This document shows, piece after piece, positions 3,558 through 55,416 of a stretch of 64,000 nt of DNA; the first letter of the stretch is position 1, and the number at the start of each line of letters is the position of its first letter. Below the pieces are notes generated by a model. It was not told the origin of the DNA. It did no database searches and saw nothing but the letters and a program-made list of their open reading frames with translations. Origin of the DNA: Tieghemiomyces parasiticus (Eukaryota > Kickxellomycota > Dimargaritomycetes > Dimargaritales > Dimargaritaceae); assembly GCA_027575765.1 (NCBI GenBank), contig JANBPT010000102.1, positions 1 through 64,000 on the forward strand, written 5' to 3'. A program made the translations under genes and the position numbers.

Positions 3558-4999
<1,442 letters not shown>

Positions 5000-40065: not shown

Positions 40066-41067
40066 TTAGGCGGTCGGACAGTCAGGGTTAGTAGCCAGGA
40101 TGAACACAGAATTCCAGTCGGCCTCCCAGGTATCATTCCAAGACGTGCAGCCCTCGGCGGCCATCATCTCCTCGACGTACTCGTGTGCCAGGTTGGCACG
40201 GTCCGGATGGACGTCACAGAATCGCTTATAGCCGGACCAGGTGCGGATCGAGTCCTCAATTTGGGTAGGACTCATATTCATCCGTACGATGGGGCTGCTG
40301 CTAGGTAGATGGAGTCCGTTCCCAGTCTGGTTCTCGTGGATGCGCTGTAGATGGTCCGGCGCGGTACTAGTCGGCAGGGGCTCGGCTGTGGGGTCACCAC
40401 TGTTCTCCCGGCAGTGTTGGGCCGACACGAGGCCAGCCGGATAGTAATAGCGCTTTACCCCGTCGAAGGGCAAGTCCCACGACCCCAGGAGGGTATCGGC
40501 GTCGAAGCGGCCCTGATCCCAGTACTTTCCGAGATACTTGTCTGAATCGGCCAGCGCCCACAGCATTGCAGTGGCCCGCGAACGGCCGGGAAACCCAGGG
40601 AAAATGTAGTTGACAAGGGCCAGGGTACCACCCGGGCGGAGCATCCGGTGAATCTGCTGCCAGACGTCGGGCCGCTTAAACCAGTGCGCGGCCGTGGCCA
40701 CGGTGACAAGGTCTACCGAGTGCGGGGCGATGGCTGGATTCCAGGGCCCTTCGGCCCGGTGGATACTGTAGGTCACGTTAGGCCGCGGGACTGCTGCGGC
40801 GATCATGGGGACTGACACGTCCATGGCGTACACCTGTCGGGCTACGTTGCTGAGTAGTGCAGTCATTTGGCCCGTTCCCGTGGCCAGGTCGACTGCTACG
40901 TTGAAAAAATGGGGCGACCCGTGTGGTTTGGCGCGGCCAATATTGTGCGATAGCGAGTAGGCAATCATTTTCTCCGTCAGCCAGGACTCGTAATTCGGTC
41001 GGTTGTCCTGGTAGACGTCCGACTGGAAGTCGTCGAGGGCGAAGGCTGAATGGACAGGCTGAGGCAT
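40066..41067 (-). CDS. Class I SAM-dependent methyltransferase (Crg1 / trans-aconitate methyltransferase-like)
   Basis: Cytosolic small-molecule methyltransferase of the Methyltransf_11/Crg1 type. It has 333 residues in a single exon, starting at the ATG that gives MPQPVHSAFALDDF. SAM-binding motif I is VDLATGTGQMTALL, followed by the acidic-residue motif YAMDVSVPMI, then VDLVTVATAAHWFKRPDVW, and the motif LRPGGTLALVNY. The C-terminal third is the substrate cap with WSGYKRF and WEADWNSVFILATN. Fungal relatives methylate trans-aconitate, farnesoic acid or cantharidin-type compounds; the substrate here is unknown. It is the only conventional gene inside the gene-poor island and has the C/G-ending codon style of the housekeeping genes. 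An upstream in-frame ATG at 41109 is judged leader. Confidence 0.88.
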   Translation of the reverse strand: MPQPVHSAFALDDFQSDVYQDNRPNYESWLTEKMIAYSLSHNIGRAKPHGSPHFFNVAVDLATGTGQMTALLSNVARQVYAMDVSVPMIAAAVPRPNVTYSIHRAEGPWNPAIAPHSVDLVTVATAAHWFKRPDVWQQIHRMLRPGGTLALVNYIFPGFPGRSRATAMLWALADSDKYLGKYWDQGRFDADTLLGSWDLPFDGVKRYYYPAGLVSAQHCRENSGDPTAEPLPTSTAPDHLQRIHENQTGNGLHLPSSSPIVRMNMSPTQIEDSIRTWSGYKRFCDVHPDRANLAHEYVEEMMAAEGCTSWNDTWEADWNSVFILATNPDCPTA

Positions 41068-43530
41068 GGTGTGCAGGCGGGTTAGGTGACAGTAAATGTA
41101 AATGTGCAAGAGCAGGAGGCGGGTTCAAGGCCCTAGGAATAGGAAAGTAAGCCCGACGTATTAATGGACATCCCTTCGTTTCAAACCTCTATTTTTCCGC
41201 CCCCCTGCACACGTACGTTGTTTGACGTCAGGGGTACATGGTCCGCTTCAAGGGATGGAAAGGGCTGCCCCATAAGTACTGCGGCTGGGCAGGTCTTCGC
41301 TGTGTTGGCCTCCCATGGTCTACATTGATTGGAACGTCGTTTCCTAAAGAGCTGAAGCCATATTCAGGGCCAGAGCCAAAGCAGCAGCAACCGCAGCAGG
41401 AGCGAATCATTAGGGACACCACTACTCAAATGATGCGGACAGCCCGCAGCGGAACTGGGCGAACTAGCGAGCCAGTACAGGACAATAGTTACCGGTGCTG
41501 TTTGCGAGAGGTAGCTCAGTCACCCTTGGCGATAAATTTTTTAAGTAATTTCGATTACAACCGGCAGGAGCGGGGGCGGCACGACATTTCGCCCTAACAG
41601 AGCCGGACGCATAATGAATAGGGATGGGTGGATGGCCACTGCGCTGCCATACATGCAACTAAACCGCTCTCCTTGTGGCCATTGGCCAACCCATTGGACT
41701 CAGGGTAAATTCTCCAGTCGCCCTCCCCCAACTGGCCGATCAAGCCAACGAACCTACTCGTCATTTCATTGTTATTACCTATCTTACAATTAAAAATCGA
41801 TCAGCCAGACATTTGGATCTCGATTAACCACAAGGAGGATGTACCATTTAAAATTAGAGGCACCTCAGCTCTAAAAAGAAAATTGAGACTAGTCAATCGC
41901 CCCGGAGATGGAGCGCTATCATGCCCCACCCTACCCCCTCTGTGGCCCACCAAGCATTGTAGCTATATGTCGCTTGAATCCACGTCTAGCGGCACTGATT
42001 GACTAATGGGTGAGTAACCTTAACCAAGCCTTGCAACAGAGGTCGCCCATTTGCTGGCAAGACCCGCCTAAAGGGCATTTCCGTTGACAAACACCCTCCT
42101 CTCCCATGGACACGCCAAATCGGCCAGTGACATGGGGGGGGGGCAGTTTATGTGGGTAATTTCCAATGCCTCACGCAACACAACACGGGAAAGTGGAATT
42201 CGCGAGTGTTTTGACGGGATAGTGATCCGACTTGCCCGGCGTACGAAATTGGTTATCTGGAGTAGAGGCAGTGAGACACGGAAGACACTTTGCCGCCCGG
42301 TTGATTTACCCGGTTCACTGTCATCGCAGGTTCCAAATCAGCCGTTTCGCTGTGATGACACTTCCTAATACCCGCCTTAACACTGGCACGAATCAACGAC
42401 AGTGCGGTACCGTGTCGAAACTTTTTAGCCACTTCTCTGAAACGTTTAAACATGGGTCCTTTATATATCCCATATCTGAATCAAGCTTTGAGGTACCCGA
42501 AAAGCAGTCCTCCACTGCCAGTGAAACAACCGACTGGTTAATCCACTATCGACATACAAATCGGCTAACTAGGAGAATGACGGTGGCCAGGGGAAATTCC
42601 AGAGAATGGCCACTAAATGGATATTGCGGAATGATGCTCGTCCCGCTGATGGAGAGAACAGAGAAAGGTGTCGATCCAGTATTAGGTATGGGAGCCTGCT
42701 ACTTAGCCGACGTGTCACGCTCTGCCAGTCCCCGTTGGATGGTCGCAACGTAACACTGCTAACTTGAGAACCGCGGAATCACCTTTCGACTTCAGGTGCG
42801 ATGGGAAGTTACCAACCAGCTTATGCTGACAACTGACCAAGTGACGTCGGTTGGATCTGGGTAACGCTCGGTAATGCACTTACCCAAAGGCCCCGAAGAA
42901 AACTGACAAGCCCTATACTTCACCCCTTTAGGATCCGAATCTGCAGCCACGGGAAAGCGACAAACGTTTAACACGTCTCCCATAGGTCGATAGGTATTGG
43001 AGGCCAAAGGTAACCGAGCGGTCTATCAATATAAGGAGGTACCTGAATAGGAACGGTTCGTTGCTGGTCATCACTTGCCTTTTGAAGCAGGCTAGCTTTG
43101 CGAAACCCACCCCCCCAGTCCCCCTACCCCCGTTATAGAGCGTCAATCCTACCACCGCTTCTGCTGTTAATCACTAGTACACTGTTGAACTTGAGTACTC
43201 CGGTTTGATAGCCGTGCCACGGCTTCGTTCGCTGCGCTTAATACTACTTATTCTTTCCCTCTTAACTCTATAATCTACCCCAGTGGCGAGTGTATTTACG
43301 GCCTGCCTCAACCTTCACGAGTTGCCGTGCTATGACCGACTGGGGAATCAGACGAAATAATTCAACCCGCCAGCCCAGTAGTCCCTCCCCATTATACTCC
43401 CGTCTTCCTTAAATATATTGACCCCTCTAGCCGCCTCGCTACAATCTAGCGCCAGACTTTATCCCTTTTAATGACCTCTCGGACATCCTTAAGCCCCTTT
43501 CCGCTTTCCTTTTCTGATCTCATTTATACC
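41068..43530. other. 2.4-kb intergenic stretch
   Basis: No supported gene. Frames at 42084-42368 and 42232-42753 have neither a signal peptide nor a domain and lack codon bias. Composition is mixed and non-repetitive. Confidence 0.4.
43410..43419 (+). promoter_or_regulatory. TATA-like box of the 50-residue secreted peptide gene
   Basis: TAAATATATT sits about 115 nt before the ATG at 43531, the same spacing as the TATA boxes of three sister peptide genes, followed by a pyrimidine-rich leader. Confidence 0.45.
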
Positions 43531-43683
43531 ATGCAGTGCTCTCTCGTTATTGTCGCCGCCACCCTGATGGCTCTCTTCACTACCGTTCAGACCGCCCCGG
43601 TAACCAATAAACCTGTTGCCACCAGTATCAGTGCCGGTAATGAATCGCGGCCTGCGGGCATCGGCATTGGAACCCTTTGGTAA
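43531..43683 (+). CDS. Small secreted peptide precursor with GIGIGTLW tail (peptide A)
   Basis: Not a known family. 50 residues: signal peptide MQCSLVIVAATLMALFTT ending VQTAP, then only about 28 residues after cleavage, with one N-glycosylation-type NES. The C-terminus PAGIGIGTLW matches the last residues of the precursor at 49431-49625 (S-[AS]-G-N, gap, G-I-x-I-G-T-L-W). An in-frame ATG at 43471 would give 70 residues. The inner ATG is preferred because it puts the signal peptide at the start, and because two sister precursors also begin MQ. The X-Pro start of the mature part would suit dipeptidyl-aminopeptidase trimming (inference). Such a short gene could only be proven by transcript or peptide data, but the shared tail makes chance unlikely. 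Confidence 0.68.
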   Translation: MQCSLVIVAATLMALFTTVQTAPVTNKPVATSISAGNESRPAGIGIGTLW

Positions 43684-44388
43684 TTTAGACCGCCCTTCAC
43701 CTATACCCCTAGACCCTTCTACCCGATACCATTCGCGCCGCTTCTGTGCTCCCTTCACACGCCCTGACAGTAAGCGCTTTGTGCAAGGCCAAGGGAGTCA
43801 CCCATCTATTTACACCGCGGAGTACGTCCCCCCTAATGAGTATGACTAATGTAACGAACCCACCGATGATATTTAGTATTACTACACAGCCCCTAATAAA
43901 CCTATTTATGATTCTATTTTTGGTCATACTAAAATTTGCACCCGTATGAAGCCGTCCGTCTGTTACTTGACAGCACGTTTAAAGTGTTCTATTGGGGTGA
44001 GTGCTGTTTGGGAAAGGAGCTGCTTGGCATTCTCAGAGTGGACTGATGATTCTGAAACACCCGTCTAGGTATAAAGCAGCCAACTCCATCGTGACCGCTT
44101 TCCAGACGCCAGGGGGCTGTGTTTCATTGTATTTGCCCCCATTCAATCGGCGAAGTTCGACTCCATTATAAGAGACCGGAATTGTGGATATTATTAAAAC
44201 ACTTTGTGGTAGAATAGCATAACGGAGGTAATATGAAATTGTAAAATATCCTTGAACCTTTAGCCCATTACCGCGGCCCATGTGGGACCGAGCCCGTCCC
44301 CTCTATTGTAGCGGATCCATAAATAAGCAGCGCTGAGTGGACGGCGGAGCATACCGTAAAGTGAGGACGAAACGTTGGTTGGGAGGGT
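43684..44388. other. Intergenic between divergent-coded peptides A and C
   Basis: AT-rich 3' flanks of the two convergent peptide genes. Small hydrophobic frames here, such as 43835-43948, follow AT composition and have no promoter. Confidence 0.35.
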
Positions 44389-44520
44389 TTAGCACCTATT
44401 ATAGCAGTTGTCCCAGCCCAGACCGTTGTTAGCGACGTTGGGGGCAGCGCTGGCGGGGGCGGCGGAGACAGTGACCAATACGGCCATAGTGACAGCGAGA
44501 ATGATGCGGGCGAACTGCAT
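44389..44520 (-). CDS. Small secreted peptide precursor ending WDNCYNRC (peptide C)
   Basis: Not a known family. 43 residues: a textbook signal peptide (MQFARIILAVTMAVLVTVSA) followed by APASAAP and a mature part of about 23 residues that ends GWDNCYNRC. The two cysteines, four apart and at the extreme C-terminus, could close a small disulfide loop. Codons are strongly C-ending. A consensus TATA box (CTATAAAAA) lies 108-116 nt upstream. The cleavage-site signature V-S-A-A-P is shared with four other precursors in this island. Confidence 0.68.
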   Translation of the reverse strand: MQFARIILAVTMAVLVTVSAAPASAAPNVANNGLGWDNCYNRC

Positions 44521-44627
44521 GGCGAGAATACTGAGGGGCTGGATGGGCGGAATGGGGACGTGTGTTCAATGGGGCAAGCGAAGCGAAGATGGTGGTTATC
44601 AGGCCAGAGGACGGCCAGGCCTGTGCC

Positions 44628-44636
44628 TTTTTATAG
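44628..44636 (-). promoter_or_regulatory. TATA box of peptide C gene
   Basis: TATAAAAA on the minus strand (within CTATAAAAAGG), 108 nt upstream of the ATG at 44520. Best consensus TATA element in the island. Confidence 0.6.
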
Positions 44637-46629
44637 TCACCGATCCTCGGCGAAATGCCAGGACTGGTCCTAAAATGCCACTAGGTAGGACAAGTTAGTG
44701 AAGGCAATGCGCCTATTTTCCTTGATTAGGACTGAGAGTGGCCCAAGACCTGGCTGCCACGCATTTTTCGTACTTTTCGCCGAAACGGTAACACGGCAAA
44801 TGATTGTCGACACAACATCCCAGGCTAGTGTCGAATTTGGGGTCACGCCCAATTCTCAGCATGTTCTCTATACGCTGTAAGCGTTTCCCACCTGATTTAG
44901 GGAACTGCACAACCACTCTCGAACAGCTGAAGAGGCCTCTCGCTGGTGATGCTGGTCTTGATGATCAACCCTCCGGATTTCCGCCTAGGAAAGACGAAAG
45001 TTTGCCTCCGCGATACATTACCAAACAGGGGAACCCAGCACGGCTGCATGAATGTATTGCACAGCAGTGGTATGCGGGACAGTTCATCCTTTTCCTTATT
45101 CGGTTTACTTTGGATTCACTTTGCTGAGGTTGCATAAAATCCGTGTACCTTCGTTTAATCCCCCGTGGGCTGCTTAAGGCAATACCATTGTGGCGGGGTC
45201 AGGCACTGATAGTGGAGTCTTGGTGGATTGTGGAAGCCTACGATCCTGGCCTACCCACAGCATGAGCCAGCTGACGGCTATATTGATATATAATGGTTGG
45301 CCGAGGTATTTACGCAATACCTACCGGTTCCACTTTCATTTGTTCTCAGGGCGATGACTAATACGTAAAGAGCGCCCAAAATTCGGGGCCGTCCTTTCCA
45401 CCATTCGACTGCGTTTCATCATATAGAACCATGAGGAAGCCAATTAGTAAGGGTGGCTAAGATGGTGGAGATAACAAATTTAGGTTATTGGTGGGAACCG
45501 CTGAACTACCTAAGTGTCAGCTTCGGCGGATGCGCTTTAGTGTCACGTAATCTAGCCGACTGGAGTGTTAAGTGAACTGCAGTAGGCCCATCCCGTTCGA
45601 TTTGGTGCAACTTTCAACTTTGACAAACGTACTGGGGAGTATCAGGAGCAAGTGGGCTTGGGTTGGGCAAGATAAAACGGAAGTCACCCTAGAGAAGGGA
45701 AGACGGACAATAAAGAGATGTGGATTTTCCGACATGGGTATCGTTCGGAGGATAAAGTACACAGAGCAGTGTGGTCAGCGAATGCACTTGGACTTGTTAG
45801 GGATAAATGAGTTTTCTGGAAATTTACGGAAGTCATTGACCGCCAACCATGGCGCATCACTGTGGATCTCCTCATTGCTACCTTGGCTGACAATGGCGTC
45901 TCGTGATGAACAGTAATTGGAGGTTTATAGTTTGCCCCAACCCATGAGCGATTGAACTGGAGATGAAACTTGGCAAAGCTCGCCAGGCTAAATGACCCAC
46001 GTTGACTACCGTACCAACACGTTGGTGGATACAGCAATGTATACTGCACAAGAACGGGTATTATTCCAACTTACCTATACTATGGAGCCGCCTTTCGATT
46101 AAGAAACTTACTAGTTAATTCTGTAGGGAGCCTTAGAGTGTGTTCGCCCATGCTATGGTGGCTTTTGCAACCGCACGAAGATGAATTAAATATTCAAAGA
46201 AACATGGCAACGATGCTTGGAAAGTCCTTAGATGTAGCGAACAGAGAGTAAAGGTAGTAGACAATTACCCTTCAACTCATCCCGCCTAACCCACTGTAGA
46301 TCACCTGAAGCTTCTATCATGTGGGAGAGATGGCCATTCATCGTCACAGCTCGCATATTCAACAGCGCCCGACCTGCCTATATTATAATTGGGTATGTAA
46401 GCGGGGGTTCACCAACCGGCAACTGATGTGGTGGAGGTTCCGACAAGGGTATTGTGATTTACAGGATGTTGGTTTTAGGATTGAGGATGTAGGAGAATAA
46501 TAATTGCTCGTTAAAGCGGAAGAACTTTCCAGGTGGTAAGTTGCAGGTTATGGATGTAGAGATCGCACAGCGTTGTCGAACTAGCACAAGCCAGCGGCCT
46601 GTCAGTTGAGTTCTTCATGGGGTGGAGAC
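44637..46629. other. 2-kb intergenic stretch in the peptide island
   Basis: No supported gene. Frames at 44804-45127 and 45684-46049 lack signals or domains. Confidence 0.4.
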
Positions 46630-46770
46630 TTAAGGAACAAAGTAGAAGTCGAAGTAAATGGGGTTGTGAGTTATCCAATAGTGTGAAAAAGGGGCAGCCT
46701 GAACGTAATTGGAAGGCATGTAGGCCACGGCAGCGAGGGCGGTGACAAGGATGGGAAAGTAGACCTGCAT
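46630..46770 (-). CDS. Small secreted peptide precursor, aromatic-rich tail (peptide D)
   Basis: Not a known family. 46 residues: signal peptide MQVYFPILVTALAAVAY, cleavage region N-Y-V-Q-A-A-P, then about 21 residues packed with aromatic side chains (HYWITHNPIYFDFYFVP). No cysteine and no basic pairs in the mature part. A TATA box lies 111-118 nt upstream. Start, signal length and V-Q-A-A-P match the sister precursors, although the mature sequence is unrelated. C-ending codons dominate (GTC TAC TTT CCC ATC CTT GTC). Confidence 0.65.
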   Translation of the reverse strand: MQVYFPILVTALAAVAYMPSNYVQAAPFSHYWITHNPIYFDFYFVP

Positions 46771-46880
46771 AGCGTGATGGGGCAAAATTAATTAGATAAA
46801 TAGGATGCGAAATTTAGTCATAATGCACGGAGAAGCTGGTCGAAATGAAGACTACTAGCCTATGGGTGGCGAATGTCTTG

Positions 46881-46888
46881 TTTTATAA
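46881..46888 (-). promoter_or_regulatory. TATA box of peptide D gene
   Basis: TTATAAAA on the minus strand, 111 nt upstream of the ATG at 46770, the same spacing as for peptides C and E. Confidence 0.55.
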
Positions 46889-47565
46889 GGAGCTAGAAGT
46901 GGGGGACGGCGCCGGCGAGCTGAAAACGCGACCAAACCTACGCCAATTTGGCCTCGCCTTAACCAGGGAGCATTCCAAGGGGGAGGAAATCGGTATTAAG
47001 AACCCAAGGGTATCAGTATAAGAAAACAATCGACTGCAACTGCAGTAAGCAATTGATGAGACGATGTGCGATAGATATCCAAGTCCTAGTTACCTATCTT
47101 GGAGGTACCTCTTAAGATTAGCTGTAGCCGATCTCTAAATGACTTACCTCTTCACACACTCGACTGGTGTAGAGTTCACCGTCATACACTTAAGAGCGAA
47201 ATTGTACCTTGTTGGCTCATGTGTAACAGGCGCCGTCATTTTTCCGTACCCGGGCTATATGGCCGTCACTCAGGATACTTTGTGAGCGAGCGACATCCTG
47301 AACCCACACTTCACAATGCGACTGAGGTAACCATTTGGAGCTATAGATGAACCCGAAAACTGTTACTCGTTCGGCCAATTCGGTTGTCCAAGGGACGTTA
47401 ACCAGCAGATCCCACGACAACATGACCATGTCTCTAATCAAGTTGGCGCAGGAAGATATGAGGTTCTCCCCGTCCCAGTTCCCTGATAACCGGCGATGAA
47501 CCGTCACATGGGAAACACTTTTACCAAGTCATTAGACTGATATGTAGAATTTCTGGCTAACGACT
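46889..47565. other. Intergenic in the peptide island
   Basis: Nothing recognised. Confidence 0.35.
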
Positions 47566-47712
47566 TCACATATGTGTGCATTTACGACAAATGGCCGTAC
47601 GTCGGCAAGGTTTGAAAGGATAAGGCTGACCCGGCGTACTATCGTCAGAATCTTCGGCACATAACGACAGTAGGACGATCACAGTGAATAGGAAGGAGGA
47701 GTAGGCTGGCAT
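47566..47712 (-). CDS. Possible small secreted cysteine-containing peptide (peptide F), 48 residues
   Basis: Not recognised. From the ATG at 47712 the frame opens with a signal-like run (MPAYSSFLFTVIVLLSLCA). An acidic spacer (EDSDDSTPGQ) follows, then a basic tail with three cysteines in the spacing C-x6-C-x2-C (KPCRRTAICRKCTHM). It differs from peptides A-E: no V-[QS]-[AT]-x-P cleavage signature and no TATA box at the usual place. Codon bias is weaker. The frame extends upstream to 47778, but those residues would bury the signal. It could be a chance frame. Confidence 0.38.
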   Translation of the reverse strand: MPAYSSFLFTVIVLLSLCAEDSDDSTPGQPYPFKPCRRTAICRKCTHM

Positions 47713-49430
47713 CAGCAGATCGGATCTACAGGTATGGTATGTCCCTGATGCATAATATGCCACACCAAGCACATGCATCTACCCTTAAGGCGAGTCCTCA
47801 TTTCCTTAAGTAATCCTGTGACGGATGATTTGTCCAATAAGACCAGGGCAGAAACTGGCCACCAGCATAGCTCGTCGTCAATAAAACTGCACATCTTAAC
47901 TTCTGACTCCGTAAATGAAGGTATTGTCCGATCCGGCCAGTGTATGGAAATCCATTTAATAATTGGACCGGCTGGTACAGCCTTCCCGGCTCCGTTACCT
48001 TTCCAACGTGGCCAAACCTTGAATCATAGCTCATAATTGCCAAGGATGATAGGAAGGTCCTCACCACGAATCTTTATTACCCAGACCACAAGTGTCAATA
48101 GCTTCATACAAAACCCATTATTTGCTAGACTCGGTTGCCCTTTTTTCTTCTAGCATAGGTGAGACAGCTCCCTATAATACGAATAGTAGTTCTCTTGGAT
48201 TCGGCCATTGACTCTAGCCGCCTATCAGGTATCAGGTGGGAGCCTGTCTGAGCCATGCTCCAAGTTCTGCTGGTAACCCCCCTCCCGGCTAATAGGAAAA
48301 TAACTTACCTGAGCCTGACATATTTCTCTGACGGCCCCTTATACCATGATACGGAAACATCTGGATCGATACTGCCAACCCAATCACGAAGGAATCCAGA
48401 ACCTCACCACTATTGAGTATGTTGCGTAGCTGGCAACCTGAGGGGCCCCTCTCTATGGTCAGTGGTTACCGGCTGAGCTCTGTTACCACCAGTAACAGGG
48501 CCCGCATATGTCTCTTCAGATAAAGTGTCGATTCCAGCTGTCAGAAAAATAACTCTGAAGGCTACCATATACCACTATAAGCTGACTTGGGCTACTGAAG
48601 CCCCCCCCCTCACGAACTCCGCAGATTCTAACTCATTAACTTGCAAGTATGCTTTATTGTGTGTCCTACAGGTATTCATCAAAGCTCCCACGAAGCAAGT
48701 CATTGGTTGGAGGAAATGATCACTACACGCAGTTTCTTTTTTCCCGAGTATTTGAATGGCCCAGACGTGCAGTATTAAAGATGTCGCGATGGATCTGCTG
48801 GTGGTGAGATATCCTGATCAGGCCGACATTGTAGGCCCTGAGGTGGTTCACTGGGGCCAATGAATTGCTATTTTTAGCCTGACCAACATGTTCCCCCAAC
48901 TCTAGAAGAGATATCTATACTTCTGTGGATTAAAAGGAAACTGTCCGGCGATTGTCCATTGGTGGTGGATTGTTTCACCACAGTAGACTAAATATACAGA
49001 GGAAAGAGGCATGAGTGTAGATTACAGCTGGTGGGAAAGTGGCAGGCGATGGACGCTCAAATGCTCGTAGAATGGATCCTACTCAAGAGCTTGGGCAGAC
49101 ATTTAATCTGGTAACACTGCATAGCATCCTCACCCACCTTAATATCTACTACATTTTATGCAGCAATTGGTTGGCCATGGCCATAGTAAAAGTAATTAAT
49201 ATTTATGAAACAGATAGTCATTTGGGTATACGGTATCATTAAAAGTCATCGGCGAACCAGTACATAAGCTATGATAAAATGAAAGTCAACAACCCGCTGT
49301 GTAGGACTAGCGACCTTGGCGTCTCTAGGCAAAGTGTACGTCCCCGGCAAAGAGAGAGGGGGGGGTAGTAAAAGTGAAGCTGGGTGGGCGGAGTTGAAAC
49401 AATACGCGGAAACCAAAGTGAGTGTATGCT
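47713..49430. other. 1.7-kb intergenic stretch in the peptide island
   Basis: No supported gene. Weakly signal-like short frames on the minus strand near 48566 and 48704 were judged too poor to call. Confidence 0.35.
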
Positions 49431-49625
49431 TTACCAAAGAGTGCCAATCTTGATACCAAAGCCATTTGGAACATTGCCACTAGACATCCCCACGGGTGCA
49501 GTTGCGGGGGTGGTAGCAGCAGCAACAGCGACGGGGGTGGTGGTTTCAACTACTACTGGAACGGCCTGCACGGCAACGGCCAGGGCGACCAGAGTGATGG
49601 TAAGAGCGAAGGAAGTGGCGTTCAT
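49431..49625 (-). CDS. Small secreted peptide precursor with GIKIGTLW tail (peptide B)
   Basis: Paralogue of the precursor at 43531-43683. 64 residues: signal peptide MNATSFALTITLVALAVAVQA, then VPVVVE and a Val/Thr/Ala/Pro-rich spacer of about 25 residues. The conserved end is SSGN, five variable residues, then GIKIGTLW. The tail is identical to peptide A at seven of the last eight positions and the cleavage signature is V-Q-A-V-P. The spacer (TTTP, AAATTPAT) resembles O-glycosylated or pro-segment sequence. Upstream TATA-like TATAGATTAAA lies 71-81 nt before the ATG. C-ending codons and the tail shared with a gene on the opposite strand 6 kb away support a real gene. Confidence 0.72.
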   Translation of the reverse strand: MNATSFALTITLVALAVAVQAVPVVVETTTPVAVAAATTPATAPVGMSSGNVPNGFGIKIGTLW

Positions 49626-49695
49626 GGCGTTGGTAAGTCGATGGCTATGTATAACGGAGAGCGAAGCAGGGATAGTCTAGAGACAAATGTGTGGC

Positions 49696-49706
49696 TTTAA
49701 TCTATA
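49696..49706 (-). promoter_or_regulatory. Weak TATA-like element upstream of peptide B
   Basis: TATAGATTAAA on the minus strand, 71-81 nt before the ATG at 49625. Closer and less canonical than in the sister genes. Confidence 0.3.
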
Positions 49707-51635
49707 GCAGCAAACAACCATGGGTTGATAAAGGCACGATTAACAAAACTTGTAAGAAAGGTGAGGGAAAAGAACCGTACCAGGAAGGGGAAACCAGACC
49801 GGAGGATTAAATACGGTGGCCTAAGTCTGTCGTAGACGAGGAAAAGAGGGTAAACTCAGGCCAAAGTTCCAAATGCCTGCCATGCATACCAGACGGGGAT
49901 GAGAAAATGGGCGAGAATGAGATGGAAATCGCATGGATTGGTTAAGCGAACACACGGAAACAACCGGTGGTAGAGGGGATTACTCAAGTTCCACAGTAAG
50001 CTTGCGTTACGGCGGTCCCGCTCCTCTCCCTAGAAAGGCGAGTAGCACAAGCGGCGAATGGCTCCTCTAGGTACATCCTCCTTATTTAGCCGGGGGGGAT
50101 TACAGTAGCCATGAGAAGGTCTCAATTACGGAAATCCTATGGAGTAAGTATACAGCTGACGAGCCTGTGCCTGGCATATCAGAACTAACGACTGGTCACT
50201 CGAAGAAGTCAGAGCCGAAGCCTTCCCCATACCGAACATTATTCCGCCTCGAAGACCCGCGTAATCGAAAAGTATACGGCCCATTGAAAGCTTAAGTTCC
50301 TGAAAGCACAATTACCAGCCATGTCGGACTGAAATGATGCACTGGTAAACTCGCCCATAGCTCTTGGTCCATAGCATCCGAATGTCTTCACAAACTCCTC
50401 TCTCGGGCAGCACCTTTCATCATACGTTGGCGATCAGCCGCATAAGCAGCGGTGGGATTCCCATTCTACAGGGAGGATGGATGTGGGGGACATCCGTAGG
50501 CCAGCACTCCAAAAAAAGTGATTGTCAACTTCACATCTTCCTAATTCATACAATCAAGCCTGTCGATAAGCCATCTGTTAACCCTTGGCCTTGCTGACCG
50601 GTCAAAGGTTCTGTACCCATATTGGATGCCAATCTTTCTTTACTAGGTATGCAACGTTGGACTCGAAAAGGGCGACAAGGAAGAGGGTGTCGGTGCCAAG
50701 GCAAGGAACCATCGCGGATGGGCTATCTATGTACCGTAGTGCTCGCTATCAATTACTGTGCATAAAAATCGAGCGAAAAGTCCGAATCAACCACCCTCCC
50801 GCAAGGGTGGATGAAGTATTGGCAAGGGATTCGCATACCAGGGCACCATAGCTGAGCCATGATTGGTGAACGTGTAGCAAACAGAGTTATCCACACCCCT
50901 CGTTTCGTGATATTAGACTTCTCCTCTCTGTCCCCCCTCCCACTGTCGACATTCCTTTCGTTTGGTATCCAGAAGCAATCCTATCATAGAATATAGTTTG
51001 CTGAGTTCAAGCATGGGTAGTCAGTTGGGGGGAAGTGGGGCAGAGTAGTAATATTGGAAGGCGGAGTACCACGGTTGGATGTGTTGGACGGTGGCAGTGT
51101 CACGATGGGAGGTATCAGCCGGCCCGCCTCTCGCCTTAAATGAGCAATAGCGCTAAGCTTGAACGTAAGCTTTCTACCAACTGACAGAGTCAAACTGGAT
51201 TTAGGGGTCAAGTCAAAGCTGTCAAGACACGTGAGACGAAGATTTACCCCACTCTAGCGCTACTCCCCCCTTTCTCAATCAAGGGGTTCTTTTTTTTACA
51301 TCGATTTACAAGGTCCTAAAGGGTGTACATATTCGACGCTTGTAGCTCATTTCTACAATGCTGCCAAAAATAGAACTTTGGTTTTAAAAAAGTCTTCCTT
51401 TAATAGACAGTAAACGGGTGTATGACTCGTCGGTGGAGCGAAGGCAATCCCGCTAGTTCACCAAGATTAGCGGTTAACAAAGTTAAGATAGTCGATGATG
51501 GATGTATATGGCGCTGCTTCCAGTTGACTGATTAGAGTTGGGGCTGGTAACGCCTTGAATATCGACAACGATCCGAATAACGGGGCAGGTCGTAGGCACC
51601 CAGTGTCGCGAAGAGTGCCAAGAGCAGGGGGTCAC
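49707..51635. other. Intergenic in the peptide island
   Basis: No firm gene. A 36-codon minus-strand frame at 50602-50712 has a short hydrophobic stretch, a KK pair, and the ending DWHPIWVQNL, reminiscent of a processed peptide, but it has no promoter or relative here and is not called. Confidence 0.35.
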
Positions 51636-51770
51636 TTAAGCCCACTTTAGAAACATAGGCTGAACAGTGCCGGAAGAAGCGACTGTCGACTCACCAGTCG
51701 GACCAGCCGAAACAATGGTGACCAGGGCGGCGACAACGACGACAACGGCGATGGTCCGGAGGGCAAACAT
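51636..51770 (-). CDS. Small secreted peptide precursor ending FLKWA (peptide E)
   Basis: Not a known family. 44 residues: strongly hydrophobic signal peptide with five consecutive valines (MFALRTIAVVVVVAALVTIV), cleavage region V-S-A-G-P, then about 22 residues ending QPMFLKWA. No cysteines. TATA box 122-128 nt upstream. The start-to-cleavage design and C-ending codons match peptides A-D. The short Ser/Thr/Gly spacer before a distinct C-terminal segment repeats the pattern seen in peptides A and B. Confidence 0.65.
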   Translation of the reverse strand: MFALRTIAVVVVVAALVTIVSAGPTGESTVASSGTVQPMFLKWA

Positions 51771-51891
51771 GGCGATCGTAAGGGTGGGTTAGGTTCAATA
51801 GGTAGGGATCAAGGGTGTAAAACGGAATGCGGGTCAGCAAAGAAGGGTTGGGTGGTGAAAGATAACGGCTAGAGACGCCTGTGCTCCGTAC

Positions 51892-51898
51892 TTTTATA
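51892..51898 (-). promoter_or_regulatory. TATA box of peptide E gene
   Basis: TATAAAA on the minus strand (within TGTATAAAAG), 122 nt upstream of the ATG at 51770. Confidence 0.55.
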
Positions 51899-53720
51899 CA
51901 AGGCCACCTACATCACGGCCGTGTAGCAAGAAACCAAACACATGGTGCATAAGGACGGACGAGTAAGATGGCACGTATCACTTAACAACGACCAACGGCA
52001 GGGCTCAAGATCAAAAAGGGATTTCAACCAGACGCCTTCATGATTCGCTCGTTGTATGAAGTTTCCCGTCTACCCACCTCCGCCCCATGTCGAACAGCTA
52101 GACCACAATCGGCACATGTACACGTTCTCTCTCTCTCTCGCTCTCTTCGTTACTGGCTAATCTAGCAATAGAAGGGGCATATCGCTCTATAATAGATATC
52201 TGTACGAAGCCGGTTGGCCCGAGGTCGCCGACGGGACTAATGCCTGGCCGTACCGAGTCTAAGTTCAGAAAAAGGCCGACTTTCACGCCACCAGGGTCAA
52301 CAACAGCGACCCGCGATTATATCCTATCCGGGACTGGCTTGCATCGCGTGGTCCAAGGTGCCTTCATTTAGCTCCGTATACTACCATGCCTTTGAGTGAG
52401 CAAGGTTGCCAGTAACAATAAAAAGAACGAAGCGGTGGAAGGGACGTCCCCAGGATCGATTGCCCCCCTGAGGCTTCGAGGGTCGTAACCGCCGCCAATT
52501 CGCACTGCACTGCCGTTTAGATTCATGGTGTGCCTAACTTCGCACTTCTTCCTTGGGAAAGACAACCCGGAGAAAGGCCGAGTGGTGCCAAGTCTGGTCC
52601 AAAGGGTAACACAAGATGGCACGTTAGGATACGAGGCCACCGCCCAGGCCTGGTGACCAGGTCAACGGGCCAATGGCGCGAGGTCGGAGTCCAGGGATTG
52701 CCGCGCTTGACCCACTTGTTCCCCTCCCCCCCTCTTCCTCTCCCAGACCCGATTGCGTTACACTCTTGACCATAGGTTAACCACCATTGATGGTTACCCT
52801 TACTGTCCCTACTCAACTAAATCCAGGGAATCGCACCTCGGCGTAACCACCATTGGCCTGGCATCGGTATAGCCAAATTGGGCAGGCTGGCCCACTCACC
52901 TTGGTCGCAATAGCAGATACCCCTGGAAGTCCACCCTCACCAGGCGAGGTATCACCCATGTGCTCACTGGCTTAGGAACGACACACCCTACCTCCCAAGC
53001 CTGAGATTGGCCGGCCAGGTCCATCCACGGCACTCTCGCTAGACACCGATGGTGGGTAATGATATCCTTCCCTCTCAAAATAGGCGTTAGGCCGTGGGTA
53101 CGGACTAGCGTAGTAATCGGTTGGTCCAAGGGGAGTTTGGCCGCCAGGTGCTCATAGGGTTGGTTAGGCAAGGAGATGGGAACTTGGCGAATACGCTCAC
53201 TAACTCCGTTGACCTCTTGACCATGAACTCAGCAGGCCATCGCTTGCCTTGCGACGATTAACGAAGTTGGGATGCCCTGTCTGGAGTAGGCCAACTTTTC
53301 CGGGGACCCTCGTTCAGGCTTAGTGTTACCAAGCAGGTCACCATAGTCGTTGTGTTAACGATATACCTCTAGGTGCGAACCCGGGCTACGGTGAAGCTTC
53401 CGTCTTTCCGTGTTCCGCTGGTAAGTCCGTTAGACCTTTATGGGGTAGACGCTGGTAAGACGACAAAAACCCTCTAGTAAGTAGTTAGTGACTGAGACGC
53501 TGATATTAGCCCTATTGATGGCGGCGGCAATATATCCCCCACGTCAGCACGACCTGCGAGGGTTAAGCCTGGATCAACAGCGTAACCCCTTCGATGTGGA
53601 GTGGTACATTTGTATGGTATTTATGTAATGAAATGAGACATGAAAAGTCCAAAAATACGATGGTGTTGAGATGGTTTGGAATTCGGAAAGGAAAGCGAGA
53701 GCAGAGGTCCAGTTCGCACC
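51899..53720. other. 1.8-kb intergenic stretch closing the island
   Basis: Contains a short CT microsatellite at about 52127-52140. No supported gene; frames at 52523-52816 and 52896-53171 are composition-driven. Confidence 0.4.
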
Positions 53721-54353
53721 TTAGAACCGTTCCTTCATCCGCGTGGAGATGGTGCGCAGGTTCGCGTATACCTTGCCGGGTGGACTACCCATGATGAGAC
53801 TGACAATGGCGTCGCGGGCGACCTTGATATTGGCGAAGCTGCCCATGATGCTGATCTTAGAGTCGGCCAGTACAATCCGGGTCTTGGTGCAGTTCTCAAT
53901 GGTAAATTTGACTTTACCCTCGCGACCGGCGATACGGCCAACGGCACGGGCCAGGTGATCCCCCCGGAGGGTCTTGACATCCTTAATTTCGAAGCAGTCA
54001 ATGTACAGGTCGTCCAACCGCATGAGGGCCACGGCGTCGTCGAGGTCGAACCCCAGGGTGAAGGCCCGGATAAAATCGGCGGCTTTCTGGATAGCTCCGG
54101 TGTCCTCGGTCTCCTGGTTGGTCCGCACCTCGACCAACTTTTCCCGGAAGTTCACGCGGATGTCTAGCTTAAGGTGGGTGACGATGGGTGTGTAGACCTT
54201 GAGCCAGTCGCGCTTGAGCGGGCCCATGCGGTGTTTGGGGATGATAATCTTGCGGTATTCCAGCACACGGCCTTGGCCATCGAGCTGAGTGACCTTACTG
54301 GGCCGGGGAGCCTGCTCAGCGCCGGGGGTTTCCGAATAAATTTCCATGGTCAT
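53721..54353 (-). CDS. PNO1: Ribosome assembly KH-domain protein Pno1 / Dim2
   Basis: Nucleolar to cytosolic pre-40S factor that binds near the 3' end of 18S rRNA, guards the Nob1 cleavage site and cooperates with the dimethylase Dim1 (family knowledge). 210 residues in a single exon. The conserved body starts at RKIIIPKHRMGPLKRDW, continues with KLDIRVNFREKLVEVRT and GFDLDDAVALMRLDDLYID, and ends with the KH core GRIAGREGKVKFTIEN, IVLADSKISIMGSF, and the near-invariant SPPGKVYANLRTISTRMKERF. The N-terminal acidic extension is shorter than in yeast (274) or human (252). Start at 54353 (MTMEIYSE); a second Met two codons later is equivalent. Upstream in-frame residues look like leader. Confidence 0.95.
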   Translation of the reverse strand: MTMEIYSETPGAEQAPRPSKVTQLDGQGRVLEYRKIIIPKHRMGPLKRDWLKVYTPIVTHLKLDIRVNFREKLVEVRTNQETEDTGAIQKAADFIRAFTLGFDLDDAVALMRLDDLYIDCFEIKDVKTLRGDHLARAVGRIAGREGKVKFTIENCTKTRIVLADSKISIMGSFANIKVARDAIVSLIMGSPPGKVYANLRTISTRMKERF

Positions 54354-55416
54354 GGTGTCGGAATTGTACGGTAGTGGGAGGAAGGACGGGGTGAAGAAAA
54401 GGGACTCAGGTAGAGCGGATCGCGGTAGCTGGTTGGAAGCGTAGTGTAGAGGCGGGCGGCAGCTAATTAGAGATGTATAAAGATACAATTACTGGAACGA
54501 CGGACACGGTGTTGGCGGAGAAATCTCGCTGGTCAGAGGCCGAATGCGAGTACGCTCTCTGCTACGCTATCCCCCGAGCTACGACGACGAGCTGATGGAA
54601 CGATGCCCAGCATTAATATTTTTTTCTTTTTTTTTTCGTCGTCGTGGGCCTGCCTCCTTATCTCCACCCTATTTTTTTGAGGGAGGGGAGTTCCCGCCTT
54701 TCGAAACCAGCACTTGCCCTCCACTGTATCCACTGGTGATCATCGTAAATAATCACGTGATAAAATCTTCTGAAGGTGCGACAGAGATGGATGTTGGGAA
54801 CTGATAGTAATGGTGTGGTAACTCCCGAAGACGTTCTCTACGGGGCAGCCTCGGCTGACCACTGCTACCAGTGGTCCGGTTTAACGCATTGCAACCGCCC
54901 CTTACAAGCCCCCCCAATGATCGTTTGGGAGCGTTGTGGACGGCAGCTGGCGAATAACGCTGTCTTGCAGATTGGATTTCTGTCTCGAGCTGGTCTAGGT
55001 TTGACTGGCCCACTTTCAAAGCTCAAACCGGGTTCTTCCGAAGTTGTGACTAGGATTTCGGAAAGTGGCGGGTCCGCAGCCCTAAAGCCTTGCGTAGCCA
55101 CCTCTTCCCCAAACGATAGAGATGCCACCGATCACGGAGCCCACTCTTCCCTGTGCCAATGCCACTCTCCCCATTTTCTCGGTACGTCCTTAGCTTAGCA
55201 CCTACCAGGCCGCCTACTTGTGCATGTTCGTATACTTTCCAACTTTTTATTGTTTGATAACCGACGAGACCCTTCTTCGCCATTCGCTACTCCCATTTGA
55301 CCCAGGCATTTGAGACAAAGCTGCCGATATAGCCTGGTTTGCCAGTTCCTACTTCTGACCATCGCTGCCACCCGACAGCTACTCCATACCACTTCTTTTT
55401 TCTTATACCAACGACC
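54354..55416. other. Divergent promoter region between PNO1 and ISA1
   Basis: Shared upstream region of two divergent housekeeping genes. Contains poly-T runs near 54620-54640 and a TATAAA near 54477. No gene seen; the frame at 54776-55198 is unsupported. Confidence 0.4.

Follow-up and report, generated by a model that had tools for sequence, protein, structure and literature searches.

Do five very short open reading frames (ORFs) in a gene-poor part of the genome of Tieghemiomyces parasiticus (Dimargaritales, Kickxellomycotina) encode secreted peptides and, if so, to which cell would these peptides be addressed? The frames lie in the 64,000-nucleotide stretch that we analysed (positions 1–64000 of contig C25, hereafter the window); the T. 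parasiticus assembly searched comprises 46.5 Mb in 1363 contigs. An earlier note had described them as a cluster of frames of 43–64 codons with hydrophobic signals, and all five are present and translate as claimed, with lengths of 50, 43, 46, 64 and 44 amino acids for genes 1–5. On the codon scores, conservation and promoter elements set out below, it is very probable that the five frames are genes encoding very short secreted peptides. The explanation that we think probable, if by no means assured, is that the genes form a local cluster, that their products are very short secreted precursors, and that the released peptides would be perceived by another cell.

Coding signal, conservation and promoters of the five frames

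Two diverged versions of C25, homeologs or haplotypes, are present in the assembly: the entire contig is colinear, with few indels, with the reverse complement of C1031:1–73975, at 93.7% identity by BLAST and 94.2% over aligned sites. Given this colinear copy, the T. parasiticus genome is probably not haploid, or is of hybrid origin, and the copy (hereafter the homeolog) provides a built-in conservation test for the five frames. Gene 1 (43531–43683, plus strand) is predicted to encode a secreted precursor with MQCSLVIVAATLMALFTTVQT before and APVTNKPVATSISAGNESRPAGIGIGTLW after the presumed signal cut, and its product is 92% identical to that of its homeolog. The other four, likewise predicted secreted precursors, are on the minus strand: gene 2 (44389–44520; tail NNGLGWDNCYNRC, 86% protein identity to its homeolog), gene 3 (46630–46770; aromatic mature part APFSHYWITHNPIYFDFYFVP, 98%), gene 4 (49431–49625; tail GFGIKIGTLW, 88%), a paralogue of gene 1 (see below), and gene 5 (51636–51770; tail TVQPMFLKWA, 91%). 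A second in-frame ATG lies further upstream of gene 1, at 43471, opening a 70-amino acid frame; position 43531 is the likelier start, because the ATG at 43471 would bury the signal peptide, whereas 43531 makes it N-terminal.

Codon usage was trained on nine large ORFs of the window and applied to the island that contains the five genes (41200–53650, no strand assigned). By a score using synonymous choices only, 0, 0, 1, 2 and 0 of the 91 other island ORFs of 30–90 amino acids (gene 1 with its upstream ATG counting as one of them) rank above genes 1, 2, 3, 4 and 5, respectively. In a six-frame scan with 30-codon windows the same five genes take ranks 1–5 of the island, with scores of 20.8 to 12.7, and the next window reaches 9.3; Ala/Val-rich signal peptides favour this window score, but not the synonymous-only score. 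Just past the cluster, at 52056–52160 (plus strand), there is a 34-amino acid frame with a high synonymous codon score, the start of which is not a hydrophobic signal.

Conservation of the frames, which in the earlier note was part of the refuting test, there for a sister strain or species, was examined in the homeolog, where all five are intact and free of indels, compared with 34 of 119 ORFs of 35–90 amino acids at 36.5–57.5 kb (genes 2–5, and gene 1 in its 70-amino acid version, are among the 119). Pooled, the five genes have 38 differences in 756 sites; over the 11,492 noncoding sites of the island that could be aligned, the divergence is 8.14% (P = 5.6e-4). Two are less diverged than noncoding sequence when taken singly, namely gene 1 (P = 0.012) and gene 3 (P = 0.0026), the latter being the most conserved of the five, with differences at 3 of 141 sites. 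The pooled ratio of nonsynonymous to synonymous differences per site (pN/pS) is 0.61, compared with ratios of the corresponding substitution rates (dN/dS) of 0.01–0.28 in the nine large window ORFs. As a set, the five genes are by these comparisons constrained but fast-evolving.

A hydrophobic signal start was found in all five by a crude home-made rule (not SignalP), a rule that is passed by 102 ORFs of 30–110 amino acids in the 300,281 bases read, window included. The island contains eight signal-like ORFs, whereas 200 dinucleotide shuffles gave 2.7 on average and never more than 7. The signature V-[QS]-[AT]-[AVG]-P, which the earlier note had proposed as a shared cleavage site, occurs five times in these signal-like ORFs and in none of the shuffles (maximum 0). 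After the presumed signal cut, all five chains begin with X-Pro; such a start, following an alanine, is a common habit of fungal secreted chains. Four of the five mature chains lack cysteine, and all five, as read from their sequences, carry a small net charge.

Counting both strands, the 12.4-kb island (41.2–53.6 kb) has just three TATAAAA words, and all of them lie, on the minus strand, upstream of these genes: at 44629–44635 for gene 2 (−115), 46881–46887 for gene 3 (−117) and 51892–51898 for gene 5 (−128). The homeolog has the same words, with a different base following that of gene 3. The probability of at least three of five genes having the word within a 36-nucleotide window is approximately 8e-7, for a window picked after the data had been seen. 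Gene 1 has the weaker word TATATTGA at −117 (TATATTG, 43414–43420, plus strand), and gene 4 has just a possible weak element, TATAGATT, at −81 (49699–49706, minus strand), both the same in the homeolog. These positions agree with the three boxes at 108–128 nucleotides and the weaker one at about 115 that had been claimed before.

The island itself is flanked by a methyltransferase gene (40066–41109) and a KH-domain gene (53721–54488), between which no coding window rivals the five genes. Its description as gene-poor and lower in GC is borne out, in that the 2-kb windows at 41–53 kb have GC fractions of 0.468–0.523, compared with 0.51–0.67 in most remaining windows, with the qualification that the drop begins near 37 kb, before the island. 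Most 1-kb bins of the island are more diverged between C25 and C1031 than gene-dense bins are. A repeat origin of the island was rejected, since the stretch 44540–49400 matches C25 itself and C1031 alone. Over 41001–53000 the divergence is approximately 8%, yet there are just 38 indels in 12 kb (1-kb bins summed), a seemingly low indel share.

Kinship within the island and beyond it

The earlier note had treated the five genes as one family, and this holds for part of the set. Genes 1 and 4 are clearly paralogous by sequence: they share the pattern SxGN...GIxIGTLW-stop, with a BLASTP E-value of 1e-4 for the pair, and the sole non-allelic match in a genome search with gene 4 was the gene 1 homeolog (E = 0.066). 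Their Gly/aromatic tail (approximately G-aliphatic-x-aliphatic/aromatic-G-[GST]-x-[WF]) is kept, while the Thr/Ala/Val-rich spacer varies in length and sequence. Gene 2 is likely to be related to both; the 34 nucleotides around its start codon are 74% alike to those of gene 1 (listed as an inverted repeat). Membership of genes 3 and 5 in one family with the others is unproven. A genome search for the tail GTLW-stop gave seven matches, compared with 19 for the control; four correspond to genes 1 and 4 with their homeologs, and the other three are not secreted frames.

Related precursors were found elsewhere in the genome, and the set is thus not confined to the island. Locus L038 showed a 70-amino acid precursor at C55:875, and a search with this precursor gave 10 matches, among which those at C55, C430, C566 (which runs off the contig end), C1058 and C1077 were the five strong ones. 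Seven of the 10 were read, C55:875 included and C230 and C643 left out; two weaker matches yielded a 107-amino acid form at C55:10229 and a 50-amino acid form at C776:20445, and the C1061 match contained no secreted frame. The 50-amino acid form in turn gave 12 matches, of which three are of the 70-amino acid type and one, a weaker match at C52:5857, has an internal stop. The remaining eight are loci at 90–100% identity, namely C776:20445 (L070, the one of the eight that was read), C425:64029, C478:17275, C916:21806, C762:19998, C171:2117, C191:2956 and C405:1596.

The dispersed precursors, of 50–107 amino acids, have a common design: an MVSF/MVSL signal, [VA]-S-A-x-P, a Gly-rich spacer and a Gly/aromatic tail. 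The tails include GIGMGWGGRW, GLGWGGRWP (in the C776 precursor) and GIMLRFGSRF, and the C566 copy ends short of its tail. Of the precursors read, those at C55:875, C430, C566, C1058, C1077 and C776 have a Kex2-type KR, in the last directly before QLGGGSGGTMPTSGLGWGGRWP, and the 107-amino acid form lacks it. When the comparison is limited to a signal cut written as [VA]-[SQ]-[AT]-x-P and a C-terminal Gly/aromatic tail, genes 1 and 4 fit, gene 2 fits partly, and genes 3 and 5 share the signal cut only. By residue shuffling, the mature part of gene 4 resembles those of C1058 (p < 0.002), C55 (p = 0.004) and the 107-amino acid form (p = 0.006), that of gene 1 those of C1058 (p = 0.004) and C55 (p = 0.016), and that of gene 2 that of C776 (p = 0.01), values to be set against the 45 pairs tested, among which approximately 0.45 pairs at p ≤ 0.01 would be expected by chance. 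Because the mature parts are alike beyond residue shuffling, a common origin of genes 1, 2 and 4 with the dispersed precursors is likely, although not proven.

The five genes were apparently overlooked by annotation, as the earlier note had expected of gene finders; no protein in the database searched resembled the gene 4 product at E ≤ 10. Eleven precursors, genes 1, 2 and 4 among them, were combined into a profile; of the 8000 candidates sharing most words that were scored out of 5.8 billion proteins, it matched a single one, the T. parasiticus hypothetical protein IWQ60_003627 (70 amino acids), which corresponds to the C430 copy of the dispersed 70-amino acid precursor. In Pfam none of the five reached the cut-off, and the sole match, between residues 1–26 of gene 2 and a mussel myticin prepropeptide, had 14 bits (cut-off 28.5; E = 0.061); a search with two dispersed precursors gave no useful match. 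Against solved structures there were six weak matches, half of which were to the first 24 residues of tapasin, and the best had an E-value of 0.32. No description of such peptides in T. parasiticus or its lineage was found in the open-licence literature searched.

Possible roles of the peptides

In the explanation that we favour, each gene would be under its own promoter, three of them having a strong TATA box at −115 to −128. The N-terminal signal peptide would direct the precursor into the secretory pathway and be cut off after V-[QS]-[AT], and the product would be a linear peptide of 21–43 residues starting X-Pro. Duplication would have given genes 1 and 4, and probably gene 2, and these three would be the cluster members of the dispersed MVSF/MVSL-type set. 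Because genes 1 and 4 have the tail in common and differ in the spacer, the C-terminal tail may be the active part, and the released peptides would be perceived either by a fungal partner, in a pheromone-like manner, or by the mucoralean host, as effectors.

Several results weigh against this explanation. Taken alone, gene 2 is not less diverged than noncoding sequence (P = 0.72), nor is the conservation of genes 4 and 5 significant singly (P = 0.12 and 0.13), and the comparison is with a homeolog within the same genome rather than with another species. None of the five precursors contains KR, RR, KK or RK, or any repeats. Genome searches with genes 3 and 5 returned their own homeologs and no paralogue, and the two protein-collection searches (gene 4; the profile with genes 1, 2 and 4) gave no relative outside the species. 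The DNA pattern for VQ[AT][AV]P shows no genome-wide excess, with 147 matches (79 + 68) against 219 (121 + 98) for the backward control; of 30 such loci read, four are signal-peptide frames, three of them in the window and one new (C159:4025). Nor is there an excess of WGGxW-stop, with 39 matches against 49 for the control; four are known members, and 10 of the 35 others were read, none being secreted. Strict TATAAA was found in only two of seven further short-precursor upstream regions (145–220 nucleotides each), at −118 in C776, as TATAAAAAG, and at −144 in C55; the C1058 and C1077 regions have TATATAG at −92, and no TATA word was found in the stretches read upstream of the C430, C566 and C159 precursors.

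The new frame at C159:4025 (L044 1438–1593) encodes a predicted 51-amino acid secreted precursor with the VQAAP signature and a basic tail, without a TATA box. A search with it gave a second copy, its homeolog, at C904:14510 (98%) and a weak match at C776:12592 that contains no ATG frame of at least 35 amino acids on the matching strand. An unrelated ORF for a small secreted protein of 108 amino acids, with a signal peptide, lies at L057 2302–2628 (minus strand, C400) and has TATAAAAGG at −142.

The earlier note had offered peptide signals, host-interaction effectors or pheromone-like precursors; that these are secreted-peptide genes is very probable. From sequence alone, we consider a self-signal and a host-directed role about equally likely, and antimicrobial or surface roles less so.

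As host-directed effectors, the products would be short peptides acting at the haustorial interface with a mucoralean host, and the gene-poor, faster-diverging island would recall the ‘two-speed’ genomes of parasites. Dimargaritales form haustoria, on hosts that are mostly Mucoromycota, according to PMC10386755. Like the small secreted effector candidates of parasitic fungi, the five products are short, orphan and predicted to be secreted, and the excess divergence of most island bins and the pooled pN/pS, high beside the large ORFs, are in keeping with such a role. Unlike those candidates, four of the five mature chains are without cysteine and the five precursors are very short. In addition, genes 1 and 4 preserve their tail instead of diversifying it, the pN/pS is below 1 and may reflect mere relaxation, and the eight near-identical dispersed loci speak against an arms race in that branch. 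We rate this role as a serious possibility that falls somewhat short of an even chance.

As pheromone-like self-signals, the peptides would carry a C-terminal active tail sensed by a conspecific receptor. Ascomycete alpha-type pheromone precursors likewise have a signal peptide and a short C-terminal peptide and, in possible parallel to the X-Pro start of the five, X-Pro or X-Ala by the processing site, and the dispersed T. parasiticus members add a KR site before the tail, giving a signal peptide, a short pro-part, KR and a small C-terminal peptide. Ste13-type trimming of alpha-type precursors acts on XA or XP dipeptides, which the X-Pro past the signal cut could suit, and the pheromones of early-diverging fungi are largely unknown except in Mucoromycotina and Blastocladiomycota (both from PMC6339444). 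We found no peptide pheromone of this lineage in the open-licence literature searched. Unlike alpha-type precursors, the five window genes are without Kex2 sites and repeats, and no sequence homology was found. Because the dibasic site is absent from the five, they are not alpha-pheromone precursors by that test; their dispersed relatives come closer. Five divergent peptides in one cluster would also be many for a mating signal, and we hold a self-signalling role to be possible, on a tentative footing.

KEX2-processed repeat proteins (KEPs) offer a further comparison. In PMC6339444 they are small secreted fungal precursors, often of unknown function, early-diverging fungi included, and a predicted Trichosporon peptide given there, QSWGGCGGRGTPCW, is loosely similar in its Gly/Trp composition. 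The KEP pipeline demands at least three repeats between KR, RR or KK sites (PMC6339444), and neither repeats nor such sites occur in any of the five, although by the crude rule all five have a signal peptide. The five genes appear to behave like small secreted peptide precursors and lie outside the KEP definition of that pipeline.

A third role, as antimicrobial or surface and spore-coat peptides, would make the products abundant secreted chains that need no receptor. The tails are Gly-rich and aromatic, and strong TATA promoters, such as three of the genes have, suit high inducible output. Against this, the mature chains carry little net charge and none of the five has a Pfam match at the cut-off, and we consider the role unlikely.

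The frames might instead be signal-peptide first exons of longer spliced genes, with their stops inside introns, as the aspartic protease of the window seems to have such an exon at 3558 (its link to the gene being inferred). This was rejected as very improbable: no further island window scores as high for coding as the five genes, which argues against hidden downstream exons, and the final codons, as far as the stop, are common to genes 1 and 4, whose chains have otherwise diverged. Chance frames with hydrophobic starts, in a region where short frames are common (331 ORFs of 35–90 amino acids in 74 kb) and Ala/Val-rich text scores well on the codon table, were rejected as scarcely credible, on the largely separate grounds of codon scores, the coding scan, intactness and divergence in the homeolog, TATA placement and the shuffle test of the signature.

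Significance for Kickxellomycotina

The work indicates that one homeologous contig, combined with codon scoring, can recover genes of 43–64 codons that annotation has apparently missed, and it provides concrete candidate peptides that are small enough for synthesis and testing. A bolder proposal, that T. parasiticus has a lineage-specific peptide language in which TATA-driven, very short precursors, both clustered and dispersed, release Gly/Trp tails perceived by partner or host cells, is one that we regard as doubtful in its full extent. If this proposal is true, the peptide language would represent, as far as the open-licence literature searched shows, the first peptide signalling system from Kickxellomycotina.

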